Origin: Ctenosaura bakeri
Taxonomy: Eukaryota > Chordata > Lepidosauria > Squamata > Iguanidae
Length of the DNA stretch: 64,000 bases
Assembly: GCA_948474755.1 (NCBI GenBank)
Contig: CAOLHI010000420.1
Coordinates: 186,001 to 250,000 of the forward strand
Reading direction: 5' to 3'
Shown here: positions 6,060 to 61,771 of the stretch, in pieces
Layout of the letters: every line of letters starts with the position of its first letter
How positions within the stretch are numbered: the first letter of the stretch is position 1
Made by a program: the position numbers and the translations under genes
The notes under the pieces: generated by a model
What the model saw: only the letters and a program-made list of their open reading frames with translations
Databases searched by the model: none
Told to the model about the DNA's origin: nothing

Positions 6060-6430
6060 ATACTCTCCAGTGTTTCACAGGTGAAAAATGGGACATGTGG
6101 GGCAAGAACACTGGCATGTGGTCAAGATGGCAAAAATTATTAGTGAGAAGGAACACACAAACTTGGAGATGCTCTAGAAGTTTGCTTTTGCCTGAGCCTA
6201 CCGGGAAGCACAAGATTCCACACACACCCGTTCTTCACTCCCCTGATGAGTTAATTGAATGCAACCTACTTTTGAACTCAGTTTGCATCAATTTTGAACT
6301 AAGCTTAGGACAAAGGGGGAAAAGCAGAAGAAACAGAGAGAAACTGGGACACTTTAAAAACTGTTGAAAAAGTGGGACAGTAGGGGAACAATCGGGACTA
6401 TCCTTGCCAAATGAGACAGTTGGAAGGTAT
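6060..6430 (+). mobile_element. TIR MITE, family 2
   Basis: Ends are 'atactctccagtgtttcacag' on the left and 'acagttggaaggtat' on the right, an inverted pair. The interior shares 'ggtcaagatggcaaaaattat', 'tttgcttttgcctgagcct', 'aactcagtttgca' and 'ctgggacactttaaaaactg' with the copies at 16,790, 26,960, 29,876 and 60,731. It is non-coding: the open frames over it are accidental. Confidence 0.75.
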
Positions 6431-6481
6431 GGTATTCTGCCTTCTATTGCAAAGAGAAGAATTTCTAATATTTACATTTTC

Positions 6482-7692: not shown

Positions 7693-7895
7693 TGGCTATT
7701 TCTGCACTACACTTGATACAATGCTGATATTGCACTGTCAACATCCTATGGAATCCTGGGGTTTGCAGTTTAGGGAGGGGCATTTAGAATTCTCAGCCAG
7801 AGAGCTATTTGGCCTAGTAAACTACAAACCCCAGAATTCCACAGGAGGTTGAAAGTGGAATAATAGCACTATAACAGTATCATGTGGAAATGGCC
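7693..7895. mobile_element. Family 1 palindromic MITE
   Basis: Both arms present, with the centre 'ggggtttgcagtttagggag...attctcagccagagag...aaactacaaacccc'. The left arm is more diverged than the right. Confidence 0.8.
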
Positions 7896-7902
7896 TATGA
7901 TC

Positions 7903-15900: not shown

Positions 15901-16021
15901 CAAATTTCACATAAAGCAATCTGAATTTGGTGTTAATTGGCATGCTTTGCCTGTTAAATGGCTAAATTCACATCCAGATCCAACAGTGCAGAAGCATATT
16001 AAAAGGTCCACTGTATTCTAC
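12901..16021. other. Spacer without recognised features
   Basis: About 3.1 kb. 'gctgtttaat' and 'attaaacagc' near 13,235-13,292 form a small inverted pair, perhaps an old MITE. The open frames at 13,643-13,939 (minus) and 13,865-14,110 (plus) have no motif. Confidence 0.4.
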
Positions 16022-16480
16022 CTATGAAGTGAGGGCGACCAAAATGGTGAGAGGCCTGGAAGCTATGCCCTATGAGGATAGACTCAGAGAGCTGGGTATG
16101 TTTAGTCTGCAGAAGAGAAGGTTAAGAGGGGACATGATAGCCATTTTTAAATATTTGAAGGGATGCCATGTAGAGGAAGGAGAGGGCTTGTTTTCTGCTG
16201 CTCCAGAGACCAGGACAAGGAGCAATGGATTCAAGCTGCAGGAAAGGAGATTCCACCTGAACCTCAGGAAGAACTTCCTGACAGTCAGGGCTGTCCGGCA
16301 GTGGAATATGCTGCCTCAATGGAGTGTGGTGGAGTCTCCTTCCTTGGAGGTTTTTAAGCAGAGGCTGGATGGCCATCTGTCGGGAGTGCTTTGAGGGTGT
16401 TCCTGCATGGCAGGGGGTTGGACTGGATGACCTGTGTGGTCTCTTCCAACTCTACATTTCTATGATTCTATGATTCTGGT
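16022..16480 (+). mobile_element. CR1 LINE 3' end (ORF2 C-terminus plus 3' tail)
   Basis: A 121-codon open frame at 16,029-16,394 shows the recognisable CR1 ORF2 C-terminal region (residue words [18 protein letters not shown] and [15 protein letters not shown]). The CR1 3' untranslated signature 'gggttggactggatgacc' follows, then 'ccaactctacatttctatgattctatgattct', the short terminal tandem repeat. All upstream reverse-transcriptase sequence is missing, as is usual for 5'-truncated CR1 copies. The open frame survives because the copy is fairly young, not because it is a gene. Confidence 0.9.
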
Positions 16481-16789
16481 CTTGACAGGAGAGTTAATGG
16501 CCTAGATCTCAAAAATAGTCATTTTGGAGCTGCTGATGGAGAAAGACATTTTATTGCATTTTTTTGTTCTGTCTTAAGTCCCCTCCATCTGCATTGAGCC
16601 TCCCTCAAGCCAATTTTGTACATTGTACTTTGAAAGTCAGCATGATGTATTTTACACCTTTTGTTTGACCTAATAAAGATATCACCATTTTATTTATTTT
16701 GGATTTTTGTGTATTTTTCTTTATATCCAACACAGCTACCCTGACATAATTTTTTAGCACTGTCGTGGTGATTTTATTGCCCTGCAATT

Positions 16790-17154
16790 ATTCCCTCCAA
16801 CATTTCACAGAGGAAAACCAGGACATGTGTGGCTGAACAACATCAGACTTTGGTCAAGATGGCAAATATTGTTAATGAGGAAGACTACACAAGCTGGGAG
16901 AAGCTACAGCAATTTGCTTTTGCCTGAGCCTGCTGGGAAGGCCAAGATTTTGCCATCTCCTCTCTCCTCTGGTGAGTTAACTGAGTGCAAACAGTTTTTG
17001 CACTTGGAACTCAGTTTGCAGCAACTGAAGTAAACTGAGAACAAAGTGGCAAAGTGGGGGGAGGAGGGAAAAAAGGATATTTAATTGCAGCTAGAAGAGT
17101 GGGATGACACTGATTCAGATTGTCCCTGCCAAATTGGAACAGGTAAAGAGTGTG
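16790..17154 (+). mobile_element. Family 2 TIR MITE
   Basis: Left end 'attccctccaacatttcacag'; interior 'ccaggacatgtgtggc', 'gtcaagatggcaaat', 'tttgcttttgcctgagcctgctggg'; right end 'gtccctgccaaattggaacag'. Orientation as in the copy at 26,960. Confidence 0.8.
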
Positions 17155-18449: not shown

Positions 18450-18647
18450 GAGCCATTTCCACACTATACTATTATAGTGCTATTATTCCACTTTCAACAT
18501 CCTATGGAATCTTGGGGATTGCAGTTCAAGGAGGGGCATTTAGAATTCTCAGCCAGAGACCTCTTTGGCCTCAGTATACTACAAACCCCAGAATCCCACA
18601 GGGTGTTTGGAATAATAGCACTATAACAGTGTAGTGTGGAAATGGCC
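18450..18647. mobile_element. Family 1 palindromic MITE
   Basis: Complete arms 'agccatttccacactatact' and 'agtgtagtgtggaaatggcc', with the usual centre. Confidence 0.85.
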
Positions 18648-26959: not shown

Positions 26960-27320
26960 ATACCCACCAACATTTCATAGCTGAAAACCAGAATATGTGT
27001 GGCCAAACAACATCAGCATGTGGCCAAGCTGGCAAAAGTTATTAATGAGGAAGAACACACAAGATAGGAGAGGATGCAGCAGTTTGCTTTTGCCACAGTC
27101 TGCTGGGAAGGGCAAGCTCTCTCCCCTGCTGTGAGTTAAACTGAGTGTAAACTACTTTTGTACTTTGAACTCAGATTGCAGCAGCTGAAGTAGACTGAGG
27201 ACAAAGGGGAAAGTGGGAGAAAAGGAGAGAAACGGGGGCATTTTAAAAGCAGCTGAAAAAGTCAGACAACAGAGGATTAATTGGGAGTGTCCCTACCAAA
27301 TGAGCAGAGTTTGAAAATAT
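26960..27320 (+). mobile_element. Family 2 TIR MITE with target duplication
   Basis: Left end 'atacccaccaacatttcatag', right end 'gtttgaaaatat'. The 8 bp before it (26,952-26,959, tggattgt) and after it (27,321-27,328, gagattgt) match at 6 of 8 bases, consistent with an 8-bp hAT-type duplication. Confidence 0.75.
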
Positions 27321-27535
27321 GAGATTGTGGAGGAATGTGTGGTCGAAGGTGACAGTAAGGCTTACAGGACTGTAAGAGCCTGCTTTCAAGTAAACAGTAA
27401 TATCTTCTGGCCAAAATTTCACAATAGTTATAACATTTTACCGCCTTGAAACGGATAAGACCACATGCAAAATTCTGCAGAAAGGAATAAAAGGCCTAAC
27501 TGATGGAGAAGCCAACTAGAAGAAATTGAATCTGA

Positions 27536-29875: not shown

Positions 29876-30244
29876 ATATTCTCTCAACATTCCACAGATG
29901 AAAACCAGGACATGCGTGGCCAGGCGACTTCAGAATGTAGTCAAGACAGCAAAAGTGATTAACAAGGAAAAACACACAAAATAGAAGAGGCTGAAGCAAA
30001 TAGGAAAGGCTGAAGCAAGGGGACTATTCTGTGCCTGCTCCCACTTTCCACCCTGCTTAGTTAAATGAGTGCAAACAATTTTTTGCACTTTGAATTCAGT
30101 TTGCGGCAACTGAAATAATCCAAGGACAAAAGGAGACAGTGGGAGGGGAAGGGAAAGCGGGACATTTTAAAAACAGCTGAGATCGTGGGGTAACAGAGGA
30201 CTAATTTGGATTGTTCTTGCCAAATTGGGAGAGGTGGAGAGTAT
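29876..30244 (+). mobile_element. Family 2 TIR MITE with target duplication
   Basis: Ends 'atattctctcaac' and 'ggtggagagtat' are inverted. Flanks 29,868-29,875 (cacattgc) and 30,245-30,252 (aacattgc) match at 7 of 8 bases, supporting an 8-bp duplication. Confidence 0.8.
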
Positions 30245-32302: not shown

Positions 32303-32306
32303 ATAT
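32303..32306. repeat. Provirus target-site duplication, left copy
   Basis: The 4 bp atat directly precede the LTR start. The same 4 bp follow the 3' LTR at 36,610-36,613. Four bp is the duplication size of murine-leukaemia-type gammaretroviruses. Confidence 0.7.
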
Positions 32307-32443
32307 TGAGGAAGAATAGGGAAAAAGAAACAAAGTAGAGTAGAAGTTCTACTTGCAACATTAAAGAATGCACAGCTATAGAATGGTCTATTCTCTATTG
32401 TATTATGTAGAGTAACCAATCAGATTTGTACAACACATCTGGT
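32307..32443 (+). repeat. 5' LTR remnant (U3 start only)
   Basis: Aligns with the first ~130 bp of the 3' LTR with about six substitutions, a 1-bp indel and a 7-bp indel. Similarity stops at 'catctggt'. The rest of the LTR (TATA box, R, U5), the primer site, the leader and the gag N-terminal part are missing. Because both LTRs are copied to be identical at integration, this deletion must have happened after insertion. Confidence 0.85.
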
Positions 32444-32448
32444 ACAAG

Positions 32449-32479
32449 AGGCGAGTGCAAAGTGTACAGGCGAGTGCAA
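32449..32479. repeat. Two copies of a 12-bp direct repeat at the deletion scar
   Basis: 'aggcgagtgcaa' occurs at 32,449-32,460 and again at 32,468-32,479 (19-bp period), exactly between the 5' LTR remnant and the first gag-like codons. It may mark replication slippage at the deletion joint. Confidence 0.6.
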
Positions 32480-33207
32480 TATATACTCCCTTCATCATGT
32501 CAGACCTCCTTAATTGGAAGACACACTATGCTACTCATACCGATAAGTCTCAGGAAATAATAGAACCTTGCTCCAGTATCATGGCCTCCCATATTCCAAA
32601 TTGGCAAAATTGCCAACAATTGTTAATGACCTTGTTCACTACTGAAGAGCGGAGAAGGATAATTCAACATGTTGAACGGATAGCCTGGAACAGGGCACAC
32701 ACACACACCCCCGAGAGGCAAACCCTGAGCAATGGATGAGGAGGAGAGTTCCCTTAGCTGATCCAGGTTGGGATCCAAATAACCCAGACCAAATGGCTAT
32801 GCTCATGGAGTACCAGGCCCTCTTGGTGGAGACCATGAGGGAAGGAATGAAGAGACCTGTTAACATGTCCAAGCTTTCAGAGGTTCTTCAGGGACCCACC
32901 AAACCTCCGGGGACATAATTGGAAAGGCTACTTAATGCCTACAGGCAGTTTACTCCTGTGAATCCTGGTGATCCGGGTAACCAGCAAACTGTGAACTTGA
33001 CTTTCATGGCCCAAAGTTATCCTGATTTTAGGAAGAAACTTCAGAAGCAGGAAGGATTTGCAGGTATGAATTTGAGTCAACTGTTGGAGATTGCCCAGAA
33101 AGTGTACGTGAATAGAGATCAAGAAGAGAAACAAGAGAAGGATAGGCGAATGCATGCGAAGGCGGAGTTGTTGGCAGCCGCATTGAGCACTCAGAAGGGT
33201 GACTCTA
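32479..33207 (+). pseudogene. gag: gag remnant: capsid and start of nucleocapsid, broken
   Basis: Gag is the structural polyprotein of retroviruses. The translation resembles the gammaretroviral capsid (p30) from near its N-terminal region through the C-terminal domain, then a charged linker and the beginning of nucleocapsid, where the retroviral sequence stops at the NUMA1 joint. Matrix and p12 are missing, and no zinc knuckle is present. The first part (to about 32,730) is in one frame and the rest in another, with a (CA)n run just before the change. An in-frame TAA lies at 32,916-32,918. It is not functional. Confidence 0.85.
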
Positions 33208-34872
33208 AGCGGGGAAGAGAAAGGGGCAGGAGATGGATGAGGAGAAGGCCAAGAGACTGGCGCTGGAAGGTCAGGTGCAGCAGCTGGGGGAAGAATCCAG
33301 GACCAAAGTCCAGGAGCTTCAGCAGCAGCTGGCAGAATTGTCCTTTGCTGCCAGAGGGGAGACAGGCGAGTGCGGGAGGCTGGAAGAGAAAGTCCAAGCC
33401 CTAAGCAGGGATTGGGAGCAACTCCTGCAGAAATTGAAGGTTGAGCAAGCGAAGGTTGCAGAAGCGGAAACGCAGATGAGGCACCTTAGCATCAAATACC
33501 AAGAAGCTCTGGCTGAGCTTCAGGCCAGTTTGTCTCTTGCACATTCCCAGGCCAAGATGGCAGAGGGTGCCAAGGAGGAGCTCAGAGCTGAGATTGCCTC
33601 TTTGCAGGAGGAGATGGCGGCTGTTCACCAAGAAGCGGCCCAGAATGCAGCAAAGCGAAAAAGGATGGGCGTGAAGCAGCGCAGGCCCTCAAAGCTGCCA
33701 CCAGAGACCTGGCCGAGGAGAAACTCAAGAGAGCAGAGCTGGAGGCCAGAGTGAAGCAACTGGGTGAGCGTAACCATAAAGACCAGTTGACCCTCTCCAG
33801 TATCAGGTCTTCCCTGAAGGAGAAGGAGCACGAGGTGAAGTAGCACTCTACCTAGCTGAAGTCACTGGAGAGCAAGTTAGAGGAGGCCACGCAGCAGCAG
33901 AAACGGGAGCTAGCTCTGCGCGACAAGGAAGCAAAGCGGCTGGCAGGGGAGGAGGAGCGAGCCAGGGCTGAGCTAGCCACAGAAAAGGCTGGCAAGACAG
34001 CGCTGGAGGTCCAGCTGCAGAACCTCACCAATGAGCACTGCGTGGAGGTCTTTGGCCTCCAGGATGAGGTGGCCAGAGCCCAGGACCTGGTTGGGGAGAA
34101 AGAGAGGGAGCTGGAGGAACTGACCCTGAAGAACGTCTCTCGCAGCGAGGAGCTGAGGGACCTGCAGAAGACTGTCAGCAAGCTGAAAAGGGAGCTGGCT
34201 TCCATGGAGGCACTGAAGGAGGGGGAAGCCAAAATGCAGAAGGAGATGCAGGGCTTCCTGGAGGTGACCAGGACCCGGGAAGCAAAGTTGAAGAGTATCA
34301 AGTCCCTGGTGCACTCCAAGGACCTCTCCCTGAAAAACCTGGAGGAGGAGAAGCGCCTTCGGGAACCGGAGTGTGCTTCCAGCTGGGAGCTCTATGAGAA
34401 ACAGCTGAAGGAGTGTGAGGCACTGCGCGGTCAGATCAGGAAGCTGGAGCGGCAGTGCAAGGAGCACCAGAGCACCCTTGCCAAACTGGAGAAGGCCGTG
34501 GCAGCCTTGGGGCAAGAGCGACAAACGGAGATGGAAGCTATAAAGCAGGAGGTGGTGCAGCACAAGCAGTGAGCCTCTGAGCTGGAGAAGCTGCTGGAGG
34601 CTTCTAGGTCCATGCAGGAGGCTGCTGTGGAGAAGCTGAAGAGGGACTTCCTTGAGAAGGGAGAGCAACTGGCCCAAAACAGAGATGCCGTGTCGAGAGC
34701 CGAGAAGGAACTGGCTTCTCTGTGCACCTCGGCCCAGGAGAAGGGCAAGCCCGAGGAGAGCTGGAAGGAGCAAATGTCACAGTGCCTCCAGGAATCTGAG
34801 AGGAAGGCCAGCCTGGTCAACAGCCCGGAGCAGGAGATGTCCATCATGCACAGGCAGCTGCTGGAAAAGGAA
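33208..34872 (+). pseudogene. NUMA1: Captured NUMA1 coiled-coil fragment inside the provirus
   Basis: The translation is a continuous heptad-rich coiled coil of about 550 codons. Ordered, unambiguous local similarity to vertebrate NuMA includes words such as LALEGQVQQLGEESR, ELRAEIASLQEEMAAV, ALEVQLQNLTNEH, ELRDLQKTVSKLKREL and, at the end, ERKASLVNSPEQEMSI then HRQLLEKE. NuMA is a nuclear protein that organises spindle poles through dynein and LGN. This piece covers only the distal part of its long rod, with no globular N-terminus, microtubule/LGN-binding tail or nuclear localisation signal. The frame is broken once near the A-run at 33,655-33,675, and has stops at 33,841-33,843, 33,853-33,855 and 34,570-34,572. 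It is visibly GC-richer than its surroundings. No introns are seen, but in mammals this part of NUMA1 lies within one very large exon, so that alone does not prove an RNA source. The upstream gag frame and the NUMA1 frame do not agree at the joint. Identification as NUMA1 is strong; the donor species is unknown. Confidence 0.88.
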
Positions 34873-35820
34873 AGTCTATCTTAACGGGATACATGGATTT
34901 GCTGCCCTGGCCTCCTCAAGGTGTCAGTTGTGCACCAAAGTTAATCCCGGACAGTGACCCAAGATAGCAGAAAGACAACAGTGTCAAGGAAGCAGCCCCT
35001 TCGAGTCGCTGGTAGTAGATTTCACTGAATTGCCCCGAGCTGGAGCCTATCGCTATCTCCTTTGTACTTATACTGGATGGGTGGAAGCTTACCCCACCTG
35101 CACCGAGAAAACGCGGGAGGTCATACGAGCTACGAGCCCTGCTCTGAGATATCATTCCCCGACACAGATTACCACATCGTATAGGCTCAGATAATGGACC
35201 CGCGTTTGTCTACAAGATCATCTAAGACTTAACCACTGCTCTGGGAATCATCTGGAAGCTACACTGCTCTTACTGACCCCAGAGTTCAGGGAACGTGGAA
35301 AGGATGAATCGAACCCTAAAGACACAGTTGTCCAAATTATGCCAAGAAACGAGGTTGAAGTGGCCAGATGCTCTACCCATAGCCCATTTCAGGATAAGGT
35401 GCATGCCACATCGAACCACAGGGCTGTCCCTTTTCGAGTTGATGTATGGACGACCCCCTACTATTTTGAGTGGGTTGAGGGGAGATACAAAGGAATTGGG
35501 GAATATGGCCCTACAGGAAGAGGTTAGCACCTTAGGGAAAGCCCTGAGTAAAATGAGGGAGTACACGTTAGAGCAGCGTCTTCCCTTCCTACAGACTCAG
35601 GCACATCCCTTCCAGCCAGGAGATGAAGTATGGGTGAAGGATTGGAAAGGAGAGCCACTCAGCCCTGGGTGGAGGGGGCCTTACTAGGTTATACTGACAA
35701 CTCCTACCACAGTGAAGGTAGCAGGGTAGAGGCCTTGGGTGCATTACACTAGGATAAAAAGGGCTCATACTGACTGGACTGCCACCCCAATCATAGGGCA
35801 ACCCTTGAAGATGAAGATCA
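34873..35820 (+). pseudogene. pol: pol remnant: integrase, broken
   Basis: Integrase inserts viral DNA into host DNA. The remnant starts near the CxxC half of the N-terminal zinc-binding domain. The three catalytic acidic codons can be picked out: Asp at 35,018-35,020, Asp at 35,190-35,192 and Glu at 35,298-35,300, the last two 35 residues apart as in D,D(35)E integrases. A frame change and stops separate the first Asp from the others. From 35,295 to 35,687 the catalytic-core end and the C-terminal domain are open. After that, stops occur in the extreme C-terminus, which should overlap the env start. Everything upstream in pol (protease, reverse transcriptase, RNase H) is missing. Confidence 0.88.
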
Positions 35821-36092
35821 CCAGAAGGCAGTAAGGAAGACAGGGACTAGGCCGTGCTGTGTTCACATTCTGGGAAGCTGAACACCCGGTACACAGCCAG
35901 ATCCCCATCTGGAGAGGAAAGAAGATTGGGACTAGGTCCTACTGCAGTTGCTACCAGGGACGCATTGCTTTACATACGGCCAGATCCTGAATGTGGGAAA
36001 CAATATTGTGGGTTGGAGGAGGTATGGGGCAGCGGCAGGCCTTGGCTATATATTGTATCACTTCAGACAGTGGTATTGTGGGTCTGGACAAT

Positions 36093-36266
36093 ATGTGGAT
36101 ATGGAGATTGTTGCTCGTGATGGGAGTGATGTTGAGCCAGGGAGGCTAGGAAGTGAATCGGTTTCACCAGTTAGTCAATCAGATCTTGAGCACCCTGAAT
36201 GTCAGTGGTTGCTGGGTATGTTCTCATGGGCCAAGCTCACACGTGCAAGGCTTAACGGCCCAAAGT
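36093..36266 (+). pseudogene. env: env start remnant
   Basis: A start codon at 36,093 opens a short hydrophobic, signal-peptide-like stretch. The frame is closed by TAG at 36,147-36,149. The same frame then continues to a CWVC motif at 36,210-36,221, like the CxxC motif near the N-terminal side of gammaretroviral surface proteins. The rest of surface and all of transmembrane protein are absent: the purine tract follows within about 40 bp. Assignment rests on position and this small motif set. Confidence 0.5.
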
Positions 36267-36300
36267 AATTGTGCTTAAATTGCTGTGTAGAATTTAGCAT

Positions 36301-36313
36301 AAAAGCGGGGAAA
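36301..36313 (+). promoter_or_regulatory. Polypurine tract
   Basis: 'aaaagcggggaaa' lies immediately upstream of the TG that opens the 3' LTR, the expected plus-strand primer position. Confidence 0.7.
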
Positions 36314-36609
36314 TGAGGAGGAATAGGGAAAAGAAACAAAGTAGAGTAGAAGTTCTACTTGCAACATTAAAGAATGCACAGCCACAGAATGGTCTATCGT
36401 GTTATGTAGAGTAACCAATCCGATTTGTACAACACATCTGGTGCCTTATGTGAACATGATGACACTGTACTAAAGATAACACTGTGCAAAAAATGTATAA
36501 AGTGTTGTGAATTGATGAAGTCTTTGGAAGCGATTCCACCGAGGCCCAGCCAGCTGAATAAACTTTTAATTTCCATTCCGTGGGTCTCGTTCTCTATTTT
36601 TCTGCAACA
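36314..36609 (+). repeat. Complete 3' LTR
   Basis: Begins TG after the purine tract and ends CA before ATAT. It contains a CCAAT box (36,415-36,419), a TATA-like 'tataaa' (36,496-36,501) and an AATAAA poly(A) signal (36,557-36,562), giving a plausible U3-R-U5 order. At about 296 bp it is short for the genus. Confidence 0.85.
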
Positions 36610-36613
36610 ATAT
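36610..36613. repeat. Provirus target-site duplication, right copy
   Basis: atat, matching 32,303-32,306. Confidence 0.7.
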
Positions 36614-42612: not shown

Positions 42613-42816
42613 AAAGGCCTTTCCCACTACACTGTTATAGTGCTATTATTCCACTTTCAACATCCTATGAGACCTTGGGGTTTGCAGTTTAGGGAGGAGC
42701 ATTTAGAATTCTCAGCCAGAGAGCTCTTTGACCTCAGTAAACTACAAATCCTAGAATTCCACAGGAGGTTGAAAGTGGAATAATAGCACTATAACACTGT
42801 AGTGTGGAAAGGCTGT
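42613..42816. mobile_element. Family 1 palindromic MITE with perfect 8-bp duplication
   Basis: Flanked by identical 8-mers aaataact at 42,605-42,612 and 42,817-42,824, which fixes the element ends and places the family in the hAT-type duplication class. Full arms and centre; the best reference copy in the window. Confidence 0.92.
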
Positions 42817-43697
42817 AAATAACTTCTCCAACATGAGCTTTTAGCCTTTATTTGGGATCCATTGTGAATCAAAATATTCAAATTCCTTATGAACCAGGAT
42901 ATCTCCTCTGTCATACCAACTTGTGATAGAGGGTCCCTTGCTTACAACCCTTACTGTGGCCATTCTAGGATCTTTTCAATCCTACAACAATAACAGTTTA
43001 CACAGGGCTAAAACCTGGTGATGATCAGAAACACTTGGGGTCCAAACCTCAGTCTGTTTGACGATCAGTCCTTTTTTATGAGTCATCCCATGAGCTAGCA
43101 TGGAGAACTTTTTCAAAGAAATACAATCTTTGGCTTATTCTCAGATCTTTAACTGGTCTAGCTTTAGCCCTAGGTGTGATTGGTCATCTAATTCATTGGT
43201 TCAGTTAAGTATAACACAGAGCTAACTATGGTTGGTATCTGCATTTGTATCAAAGTTGGCTTGCTAAGCATGCTTTGCTTGAAAATGGAAAAGCAAAAAA
43301 TGCTGTTTGAACTGATTCTTCCCGTTTACTCAACCATCATCTCTACAAAGAGCTGTCATTCTTCTGTAAGCTGGCTTCCTGCTTTATTGGACTCTTTTTT
43401 GTTTGTTAGCCTTGGATTGATTACATCTCTCCTAGCCTGTTGGCTGCCATTTGTCTTGTTTCCTAACCTTTAGTTCCACATTGCTTAGCCTACGCTAAAG
43501 TTGTGGAGAAAGATAGGTCTTTCCACAGGGAGTCACATGGTGGCTTCACTCTTGATCTTTATGGTGACATAATTTGTATCTGAAATCTTCCAAATATAAT
43601 CCTTTGGTTCAGATGATTCTGTTTAGGAATTACTGTGTAAAATGTTAATTTATTTGATTATTGGTCTGGGGTGGTATTGGCTCTGAGGTACAAACGT
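42817..43697. other. Spacer without recognised features
   Basis: No feature recognised beyond the target duplication at its left edge. Confidence 0.4.
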
Positions 43698-44137: not shown

Positions 44138-44512
44138 GGGGGGGAGTTAGCCGTGAAGTTCAGATACCTTTAGCTCATTAGATCTCATTTTAATATTAAT
44201 TTTTAAACCCCCAAGGTGGGGATCTGGTATTATAATTTGGGACCACTCATAGACATGCACGATGTTTGAATGCTGACATAATAATGTATTCATGACATAG
44301 TTCCTATATGTATGTATTTGGATTAGCCAATTAACTAGCATTTTTTTGCTTCTGTAGCCATGCTCAGCAGGGTATATAGCTGCCTGTGTGCAGCCATTTC
44401 TTTGTAGTGGTTTGTCTTGGGTGCATGAGCACAGCTACTCCCCACTTGTGCAAACGAAATAAAGAACCATTTTATTATGATCCAGTTGTTACTGACTAAT
44501 TAGTAACATATA
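44138..44512 (+). repeat. LTR copy, plus orientation
   Basis: Shares about 350 bp with the reverse complement of 44,945-45,296. It has a TATA-like 'gggtatatagctgcc' (about 44,371-44,385) and a poly(A) signal in 'aaacgaaataaagaacc' (about 44,453-44,469), as expected of an LTR. The family is not recognised; it is distinct from the provirus LTR at 36.3 kb. Confidence 0.6.
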
Positions 44513-44514
44513 GC

Positions 44515-44612
44515 CTACAGCACCTGGTATCTATTGGTGGTCTCCTATCTAACTGCTAACCAGAGCTAAACCTACTTAGCTTCCAAGATCAAAGAGGATC
44601 TGGTGCTCTTAA
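44515..44612 (-). mobile_element. 5S rRNA-derived SINE head
   Basis: The minus strand reads 'agatcctctttgatcttggaagctaagtagg...ggttagcagttagatagga', closely 5S-like. It abuts the tail of the next SINE. Confidence 0.7.
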
Positions 44613-44614
44613 GA

Positions 44615-44809
44615 TTGTTTTGTTGTGTGCCTTCAAGTTGTTTCCAACTTACAGCAACCCTAAGGTGAACCAGTCAAGGGTTTTCTAGGGCTGAAAGCGT
44701 GTAACATGCCCAAGGTCATCCCGTGGGCTTCCATAGTCCAGCAGGGAATTGAACTCTGATCTCCAGGGTCATAGTTCAACACTCAAACCACTACATTACA
44801 CTGGTCCTT
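44615..44809 (-). mobile_element. tRNA-derived SINE (Sauria type)
   Basis: Minus-strand copy: tail 'ttgttttgttgtgtgccttcaagttg', 'gcaaccctaaggtgaacc', 'catgcccaaggtcatcc', and tRNA head at 44,780-44,809. Confidence 0.85.
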
Positions 44810-44944
44810 ATAGAATACTCCCCCAACAATCTACAATATATCTACTGGCTGGCTGGATTAAAAATACAGTAGGTGTATGCTCATTCAATATATTCCAGTG
44901 TGAAGCACTTAACTTTATTAAGGTTGAGCAATGATACCTGGATA

Positions 44945-45296
44945 GTAAGAAAAAGGTTTTTCTTTATTTCATTTGTGCAAATGGAGAATGGCTATGCCCA
45001 TCCAACAAAGACAAGCCACTCCAAAGAAATGGCTGCATGCAGGTAGCTATATATCCTGCTAGGTATGATTACAGAAGCAAAAAATGCTTGTTAATTGGCT
45101 AATCCAAATACATACATATAGGAACTATGTTTTGAATACATTGTTATGTCAGCCTTCCAGCATTGTGCATGTCCATATAGCTGGTCCCAAATTATAATAG
45201 CAGATCCCACATTGGGGATATATAAGTTAAAATCATAATGAAGCATAGTGAGCTAGAGATAACTGTAAGTCATGGATATCTGCTTTCCCCTCCCAA
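44945..45296 (-). repeat. LTR copy, minus orientation
   Basis: Inverted partner of 44,138-44,512. It keeps the TATA-like and AATAAA sites on the minus strand. The copies differ at many positions, so they are old or inserted separately. Confidence 0.6.
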
Positions 45297-49650: not shown

Positions 49651-50087
49651 TGACATACTGAAAAGCTTGAGTTCATATACGGCATCTCTGGTGGCAGCAG
49701 TTAATACAGGATGATGGAGTCTGGTGGGAAGGTAAGATGAATAAGGTCTTGTACAGGAACCACAAGAAAATTTAAAAGGCCCTCACATTTGATACAATAC
49801 AGCAGGACAAAAGGAGGTCCTCACATTGATGACAGAAAGGAAGATGAGTGAATGCTGTCACATTTGGTGGCAGAGATGGGTAAGTAAGCAGGAGAGCCCC
49901 ACAGTATGCATAGATGCAAATCTGAAAAGCATAACTATCATTTAAATAAACTGCATCTCACCATAGTCGGGCCCAGTATTAACAAAGTGACCTGTGTGCC
50001 TGCTGTGTCTGCAGTCGACTTACAAACTCTTCAAGATCCCTGCTTTCCCTTTTTATGGCTCTTTATTTTTAAGCTGGGCTTGATGTA
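49651..50087. other. Spacer, possibly LTR-element interior
   Basis: 'cacatttggtggcagagatggg' at about 49,859-49,880 echoes the 'ctctggtggcagcag' at about 49,688. Nothing else recognised. Confidence 0.3.
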
Positions 50088-50290
50088 GGTCATTTCCGCA
50101 CTACACTGTTTAGCGCTATTATTCCACTTTCAACACCCTGTGGAATTCTGGGGTTTGTAGTTTTTCTGAGGCCAAAGAGCTCTCTGGCTGAGAATTCTAA
50201 ATGCCCCTCCCTAAACTGCAAACCCCAGGATTCCATACGATGTTGAAAATAGAATAATAGCACTATAACAGTGTATTGTGGAAATGGCCA
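50088..50290. mobile_element. Family 1 palindromic MITE
   Basis: Both arms and centre complete; same orientation of the centre as the copy at 1,043. Confidence 0.85.
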
Positions 50291-50380
50291 GAGACATGCC
50301 TTCAAAGAGAGGATGTTTTCCAAGAGAGGATTATTCTCTGACTGCCATTAACACAGAAGACTGTGCTGTGTAAAATAGGA

Positions 50381-60568: not shown

Positions 60569-60730
60569 GTAACAAGGAATTATATCGCTCCTGTAACAGT
60601 TACTGTTTTTCAAAGCTACAGGAGATGTGTGGCCTAACAACTTAGTGGATCCCATAGGTATCCCATAGGCTAGCAGCTTGTATAATTCTGGAACTTTAAA
60701 AAAAACTAAGTAAAAACTTAACTATATTAC

Positions 60731-61101
60731 ATACCCTCAAACTGTCCCAGTTTGACAGGGACAATCCTGATTAATCCTCTACTGTCTCATTTTTAAAGCT
60801 ACTTTAAAAATGTCCTAGCTTCCCTCTCTTCCTTCTACTTTGCCATCAATTTTACTTTAGTTGTTGCAAACTGAATGCAAAGTGCAAAAGTAGTTTGCAC
60901 TCAGTTAACTTAGCACAGGTCATAGGAAAGGAAGGAGGTGGAATATTACCCTTCCCAGTAGGCTTTGCCAAAAGCAAACCACTGTGTCCTCCCTCAGATT
61001 GTGTTTTCTTCCTCATTAATAATTTTTGCCATCTTGACTATGCTGTAATGTTGCTTGGCCACACATGTCCTGGTTTTCCTCTGTGAAATGTTGGAGGGAA
61101 T
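60731..61101 (-). mobile_element. Family 2 TIR MITE, inverted
   Basis: Plus-strand ends 'ataccctcaaactgtccc' and 'gaaatgttggagggaat'. The interior is the reverse complement of the other copies ('agtttgcactcagttaac', 'ttgccatcttgac', 'ggccacacatgtcctggttttcc'). Confidence 0.85.
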
Positions 61102-61771
61102 GATTCTTTTTACTTCTAAATAATGAGAAAATATAGAGCTGCTTTCAAAAAAGTATAACCCTGCTGGTAGCTACCTATAGTGGGTATTAGGGGGTAATGG
61201 TAACCAGTTGTTTTTAATGTAAACTCCTAGTGTTTCAGTGTATCCCTGCTTCTTTCTATTGGCCACACCAGTTATGACACTTACTTTAACTCTTTACAAG
61301 AGCTTTACTTTAGAGCATCTCTCTCTAATATCTGTAGTTCCTCTTTGCAAAGATGCTGGAGAAAAGTGCAAAATATCTCAGTCCTGTTGTTCTTTCAGAA
61401 AGCAAACAGTGTATTTTATTGCTAGAAGACCCTCCTTACTGGACAGGTTTCTGTTCAATCATGTAAATATAAGCAAAGAGCACACAGCCGTACCTGATAT
61501 GCAAGGAGTCCTAACCAGAGATGAGAGAGAACTTCTCTACTTGGCATTTTAATGTGAACACATCTAATTCTCACTTTCTAAACCTACATGTGAGCTGAAA
61601 CAGTAATATTCATACCTCACTGAATGTTTCAGTAAAGTTATCCCATTAATCTGGTGTGGGGAAAAAAGGAGTTGAGGGAAGTGGAGACAAAAAGGAGTAT
61701 ATTAGTAAAAGTAGATTATAAAAACATGTTATGGGAACTTTCTTGCATATGCTAGTCAAGAACAGATATTG

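Follow-up and report, generated by a model that had tools for sequence, protein, structure and literature searches.

A decayed provirus in the genome of the iguanid lizard Ctenosaura bakeri carries a piece of the host gene NUMA1. It very probably belongs to a multi-copy, gammaretrovirus-like family of endogenous retroviruses (ERVs) in which 1.65 kb of the giant NUMA1 exon replaces everything from the nucleocapsid to the start of the integrase, likely through a single insertion by template switching. The element occupies positions 32303-36613, plus strand, of the window, the stretch of 64,000 nucleotides analysed here (contig C420:186001-250000 of the 1.905-Gb assembly). Its parts follow in the order ATAT, long terminal repeat (LTR) remnant, gag, NUMA1 piece, integrase, purine tract, LTR and ATAT. 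As in transducing retroviruses, the provirus contains host coding sequence that has viral genes on both sides and takes the place of others. A first-pass annotation of the window had proposed a gammaretrovirus that captured part of NUMA1, and this proposal is supported by the domains of the provirus, by the donor gene and by the joints common to its copies.

The NuMA-like coiled coil noted earlier at 33208-34872 is indeed that of NUMA1, with limits slightly inside, at 33226-34872. A human NUMA1 sequence was applied as reference, and of 11 peptides from it one was found in publications (PMC8779136, in the part of the text available). Pieces 1, 3 and 4 of the insert are collinear with this sequence, with identities of 50/143, 73/221 and 45/103, respectively; the matches of pieces 3 and 4 overlap on the human side. 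Each of these pieces outscores all 300 heptad-block shuffles. Piece 2 (59 amino acids) did not score above its own shuffles against the human NUMA1 and aligns elsewhere. The host NUMA1 gene was located on contig C2434, where its exons stand in order and cover residues 9-1687, a partial coverage. Its giant exon has an open frame of 1246 codons (244897-248635) and matches the human NUMA1 with an expect value (E) of 8e-163. The check that the first-pass annotation had suggested, an alignment to the species' own NUMA1, identified this exon as the donor: the window and C2434:245907-247566 are 92.95% identical over 1660 columns, and the match ends at both viral joints. At the level of sequence comparison, the host gene on C2434 is the decisive evidence for the NUMA1 identity of the insert. 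A public protein collection yielded no relative for the NUMA1 piece at E 1e-5, candidate relatives of the NUMA1 piece or of the integrase pieces were not confirmed in viral contigs, and Pfam and PDB searches did not name the NUMA1 rod.

The capture joints could be read by comparison with relatives that are free of NUMA1. A gag search of the genome, in which the best 40 of 151 candidates were scored, led to three copies off the NUMA1 list that were read (L046, L047, and L048), and L046 and L048 were scanned for domains. Both carry Gag_p30 (E 8e-43 and 1e-37, respectively) and continue past the capsid into a CCHC knuckle. L046 has a protease, both have an RNase H-like domain, and L048 has an integrase zinc domain, the RNase H-like and zinc matches of L048 being below the cut-off. 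The single CCHC knuckle and the retroviral protease are found in the NUMA1-free relatives only; in the NUMA1 copies, NUMA1 occupies their place. The left joint (33226-33233, plus strand) reads GCAGGAGA, and the host NUMA1 exon and L048 agree there in all eight nucleotides. At the right joint (34855-34872, plus strand), 18 of 19 nucleotides agree between the host exon and L048, and one extra A follows. Among 1,000,000 random host-virus joints, an identical run of at least eight nucleotides occurred in 290, and an agreement of 18/19 in one. We infer an RNA intermediate from these comparisons, and the short homologies at both joints are a better argument for capture at the RNA level than the absence of introns.

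The capture can be pictured as follows. Viral RNA would have been packaged together with NUMA1 mRNA, and reverse transcriptase would have switched templates between the two. At the right homology, minus-strand synthesis would have left pol for the NUMA1 RNA, and at the left homology it would have returned to the virus within gag. The resulting chimera would depend on a helper because the nucleocapsid knuckle, the protease, and the reverse transcriptase were lost, and the helper's enzymes would have packaged and copied it. Such helper-driven copying would have given rise to a star-like set of copies near the host sequence (lineage A) and to a second, further diverged set in which part of NUMA1 is lost (lineage B), with NUMA1 most likely as a passenger. 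Histone H1, a second host gene in the family, was likely joined to NUMA1 by recombination between packaged genomes.

The genome was searched with the NUMA1 DNA; scoring covered the best 40 of 93 candidates, which makes all locus counts lower bounds. At least 65 matches were obtained, spread over 39 contigs that include the one with the host gene. The insert is present at at least 38 loci, 21 of lineage A and 17 of lineage B, and therefore the chimera itself has been copied many times. The first-pass annotation had proposed a search for other loci with the same gag-NUMA1-pol joints; they were found in lineage A, among at least 37 further insert loci. The gag-NUMA1 joint is common to 20/21 A loci and the NUMA1-integrase joint to 19/21, the remaining loci being without the region. 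Identity of the insert to the window is 84-94% for the other A loci and 78-86% for the B loci (main piece, with an internal deletion), and identity to the host exon is 91.5-95.1% for A and 86.0-89.0% for B copies. The B copies cover at most host positions 245921-246211 and 246566-246992, and the 354 nucleotides between were matched in none of the 17. Lineage B consists of two subtypes, B1 and B2, with different deletions across the left joint. In a tree, lineage A forms a shallow star near the host sequence with weak internal support, and B sits on a long branch; tree and change counts comprised 18 of the 21 A loci (L015 and L020, one locus in halves, L038, and L040 were omitted) and 17 B loci, the tree including B copies only above 300 columns.

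Each of the nine copies in which it could be read, namely the window, L002, and seven B loci, is surrounded by its own 4-bp target duplication. These duplications are ATAT in the window, GAAT in the A copy L002, and CAGG, GTTA, AGCT, TCAG, ATCC, ACAC, and TATA in seven of the 10 B loci for which two LTRs were identified; they were unreadable in L003, L010, and the B loci L023, L031, and L034. The distinct duplications point to separate integrations. LTR distances of nine B loci (L030 of the 10 was omitted) range from 0.036 to 0.130, compared with 0.048 in the window, so lineage B is not visibly younger than A. If each site changed at about 1e-9 per year, such distances would amount to LTR ages of tens of millions of years. 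Lineage B carries about 505 nucleotides between the NUMA1 piece and the integrase (L022:3438-3943, with corresponding sequence in other B copies). This segment matched neither the NUMA1 region nor the relatives read, and nothing in Pfam (searched in pieces) or PDB (searched with one piece); it may represent a third host capture. Recombination as the source of the window gag was considered because NUMA1-free copies ranked closer to it than A copies, and was rejected, as the column-wise distances are all about 6%, apart from one A pair at 1.7%. In the gag alignment (758 columns), six A copies miss 32-50 columns and the relatives 2-11, from which the ranking of NUMA1-free copies above A would follow.

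The window copy itself is limited by the duplication ATAT at 32303-32306 and 36610-36613, both read in the sequence. The 5' LTR remnant (32307-32443) is truncated after 137 bp and was aligned to 36314-36442 of the 3' LTR, with a Kimura two-parameter distance of 0.048 across 129 columns. The primer site, leader, matrix, and p12 are missing in this copy. The matrix-p12 region is kept in the A copies L002, L003, L007, L010, and L019, with the matrix weak in Pfam, and a primer-like sequence, TGGGGGCTCGT, lies 3' of the 5' LTR in L023 and L002. This we take to be a primer site of the proline type. The frame of gag (32465-33225) is broken; it comprises the capsid p30 (approximately 32500-33107) and the start of the nucleocapsid. 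Gag_p30 was found by Pfam on three stop-to-stop pieces with E values of 8e-12, 5e-6, and 2e-15, the second slightly below the cut-off. Downstream of the captured rod segment (33226-34872) follows an integrase remnant (34873-35770, end approximate) that extends from the zinc-binding part to a putative murine leukaemia virus (MLV)-type C-terminal domain. Its pieces match rve (E 0.0045) and MLVIN_C (E 6e-6; 26.3 bits against a cut-off of 29.2), both below the Pfam cut-off; among related copies, L037 matches rve with E 4e-10. The 3' internal region (35771-36300) is common to other A copies and is followed by the purine tract AAAAGCGGGGAAA (36301-36313), which resembles tracts before the 3' LTRs of other copies. 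The 3' LTR (36314-36609) has the ends TG...CA and a full-length match in L002. All these features are on the plus strand. The MLV-type capsid, the 4-bp duplications, the TG...CA ends, the proline-type primer site, and, in the relatives, the single CCHC knuckle and the protease are gammaretrovirus-like marks. Thus the target duplication, the LTR remnant and LTR, the gag remnant, and the purine tract described in the first-pass annotation were confirmed by sequence, LTR alignment, and Gag_p30, and its integrase remnant is borne out by the two sub-threshold pieces. The start of env that it had also described found no support, as the single piece at 35991-36146 had no Pfam match.

Capture by this family likely extended to two host genes or more, NUMA1 and histone H1 being the two recognised. 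B1 copies carry an insert between matrix and p12, with both anchors present in eight of 10 loci, 185-945 bp apart. The translated insert of L032 matches H1.2 (E 1.3e-13) and Pfam Linker_histone (E 5.9e-5), and that of L027 matches Linker_histone with E 0.0025, below the cut-off. A DNA search with the H1 insert, applying a query with short viral ends and scoring the best 40 of 89 candidates, matched at least 38 contigs, of which 11 had also been hit with NUMA1. On contig C552, which is absent among the NUMA1 matches scored, matrix is followed by an H1 piece (E 2.8e-32 to H1.2) and then by p12. Twenty lineage A records (L015 and L038 omitted) were surveyed, and H1-matching DNA of at least 169 nucleotides was found in five (L004, L006, L013, L016, and L040); four others match the first 70 nucleotides only, which are viral, and 11 showed no match to the H1 insert. 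In L004, L006, and L040, p12 is followed by H1 and then by the gag tail, and the capsid is missing. All seven B2 loci match the H1 insert, six of them over 72-166 nucleotides only; an H1-like piece of B2 had no match in PDB or Pfam, and H1 is recognised in this subtype through its DNA similarity to B1. Identity of H1 between A-type and B-type is 69-74% for pieces of at least 330 nucleotides and 77-89% for shorter ones, compared with about 86% for NUMA1 between A and B. Because of this lower identity, elements with H1 perhaps have the greater age, recombination having later united the two genes.

In MLV, p12 is the part of Gag that tethers the viral complex to mitotic chromatin, and added chromatin-binding sequences can rescue C-terminal p12 defects, according to the available parts of PMC3531515 and PMC6021111. 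Since MLV p12 docks on mitotic chromatin, the H1 piece adjoining p12 suggests a possible swap of the tether. The family would resemble MLV in having p12 as the chromatin-docking part of Gag, the neighbourhood of H1 and p12 being a natural one here. A serial capture of two mitotic-chromosome genes, with H1 beside p12 as a natural chromatin-tether swap in Gag and with recombination reassorting the captured genes between defective lineages, is a tentative possibility.

Several observations weigh against a single capture by template switching with NUMA1 as a passenger. The left homology is only 6/8 in L046 and L047 and is complete in one of the three relatives, and L048 is the sole relative read that covers the right joint, where one extra A directly follows in the seven A copies compared, the window included. 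L046, L047, and L048 seem from their sequences to be without most of the reverse transcriptase, and for this reason they may themselves have been helper-dependent. The original joints are not kept in lineage B; the integrase start is present only in L037, where the upstream sequence is not clearly NUMA1. Because the B joints are lost, the argument that A and B go back to one capture is that the B piece is nested in that of A. The host H1 donor gene was not found, and 27 H1-matching contigs are off the NUMA1 list, of which C552 alone was read and some could be host genes. Lastly, the changes fixed in A compared with the host are 24 synonymous and 16 nonsynonymous, with 14, 18, and two stops fixed in B only, four and three in B1 only, and one and seven in B2 only; these lean synonymous compared with the 26-30% synonymous changes expected and may indicate a weak constraint in the virus.

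The insert could also have been made at the DNA level, if break repair had fused a genomic NUMA1 exon into a provirus by short homologies, followed by transcription and spread. The insert contains no NUMA1 intron, but this is no proof of an RNA intermediate, because the donor piece lies within a single exon and genomic DNA would look alike; DNA repair also uses short homologies. Still, two homology-guided joints, one of them of 18/19 nucleotides, that place an internal exon piece neatly in the provirus fit template switching better, and we regard joining of DNA as improbable. Hardly credible is a processed NUMA1 pseudogene that was put into the provirus before its spread by retroposition of the long interspersed element (LINE) type. 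LINE-like repeats are probably common in this genome, but the insert is exon-internal and stands in place of viral sequence. Neither a poly(A) tail nor an own target duplication was seen at its edges in the joints read, so the later processed insertion that the first-pass annotation had named as a counter-explanation is unsupported. Independent captures by lineages A and B would agree with the differences, which are 14% between A and B, 6.8% between host and A, and 11.5% between host and B, and with the lack of clear original joints in B. On the other hand, the B piece starts 14 nucleotides inside that of A and lies within it, nine fixed changes compared with the host are common to A and B with three fixed in A only, and several B2 copies retain the same gag tail before NUMA1, which makes two separate captures very improbable.

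The virus might also have made use of the NUMA1 coiled coil, e.g., for joining Gag proteins in the stead of the nucleocapsid. The long persistence in two lineages, the synonymous lean of the fixed changes, and an ATG at 33233, in frame with NUMA1 and within the left joint, speak for such a use. However, the reading frame shifts between gag and NUMA1 at the joint of the window, and gag would end about 60 codons into the insert, and two stops are among the changes fixed in B only, which also has the internal deletion. The differing frames in the window, together with the extra base at the NUMA1-integrase joint of the seven A copies, make a simple gag-NUMA1-pol fusion protein unlikely. Part of the synonymous lean in A would be due to changes on the side of the host gene, which the A counts also contain. 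Singleton changes number 132 synonymous, 294 nonsynonymous, and 22 stops in A (18 copies) and 31, 90, and four in B, and changes common to some A copies number 60, 119, and seven. We consider a viral use unlikely; NUMA1 shows no convincing selection, the copy-specific changes look neutral, and most likely NUMA1 was mainly a passenger of the captured-exon family.

Apart from the provirus, the window contains several repeats. A 5S rRNA-like sequence at 44512-44630 on the minus strand (Rfam RF00001, 41.5 bits) lies between inverted arms at 44145-44485 and 44938-45281 and is perhaps a 5S-derived short interspersed element. Copies of a foldback-like repeat of about 200 bp, matching in both orientations, are located at 1044-1245, 7694-7896, 18452-18647, 42614-42820, and 50087-50295. 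An interspersed repeat of about 370 bp with 70-75% identity is found at 6060-6439, 16786-17151, 26960-27329, 29877-30242, and 60730-61105, and it also adjoins the B copy L032. An open frame at 15966-16394 (plus strand) gave no Pfam match; its product presumably resembles the last part of a LINE protein.

Acutely transducing retroviruses (v-src, v-abl, v-myc) likewise carry host sequence between gag and pol remnants in a helper-dependent layout, whereas the NUMA1 family is fossil, germ-line, and present in many copies, with its donor readable in the same genome. Retroviruses that transduced two genes include avian erythroblastosis virus, MH2, and E26, and we know of no NUMA1 among retroviral oncogenes. 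Tan et al. reportedly described in 2016 how LTR-mediated retroposition proceeds by template switching at microsimilarities. Closer in kind are the crocodilian lineages CrocERV31-nectin3 and CrocERV29-KIT-ligand, which according to the available part of PMC4299795 are also multi-copy and carry captured host coding sequence. There, host mRNA replaces env (nectin3, whole gene length, gained at the expense of env) or lies between pol and env (KIT-ligand), and purifying selection is reported. In the NUMA1 family, by contrast, an internal exon piece replaces nucleocapsid to integrase start and looks mostly neutral, and a second host gene is circulating. A further likeness is LTR-mediated retroposition, in which template switching joins pieces of host mRNA to LTR elements at short homologies, and maize Bs1, tied to three host genes (PMC5408686, in the part available); the NUMA1 family differs in that both joint partners are found within one vertebrate genome and that the chimera has expanded into lineages. 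A literature search covering titles and the beginnings of abstracts of the papers listed, with repeat libraries outside its scope, yielded no report of NUMA1 or H1 capture or reshuffling, and a word search for "numa" in PMC4299795 and PMC13297096 found none. Capture of host genes by ERVs is thus already known, and within the literature searched NUMA1, H1, and their reshuffling appear to be new.

Because one genome retains the donor gene together with viral relatives free of NUMA1 and with dozens of copies descended from the chimera, the capture joints are directly readable. The neighbourhood of H1 and p12 makes the chromatin-tether hypothesis testable by comparison. If true, the reshuffling of two captured genes in one defective family would mean that captured host genes can circulate between virus lineages over long times.

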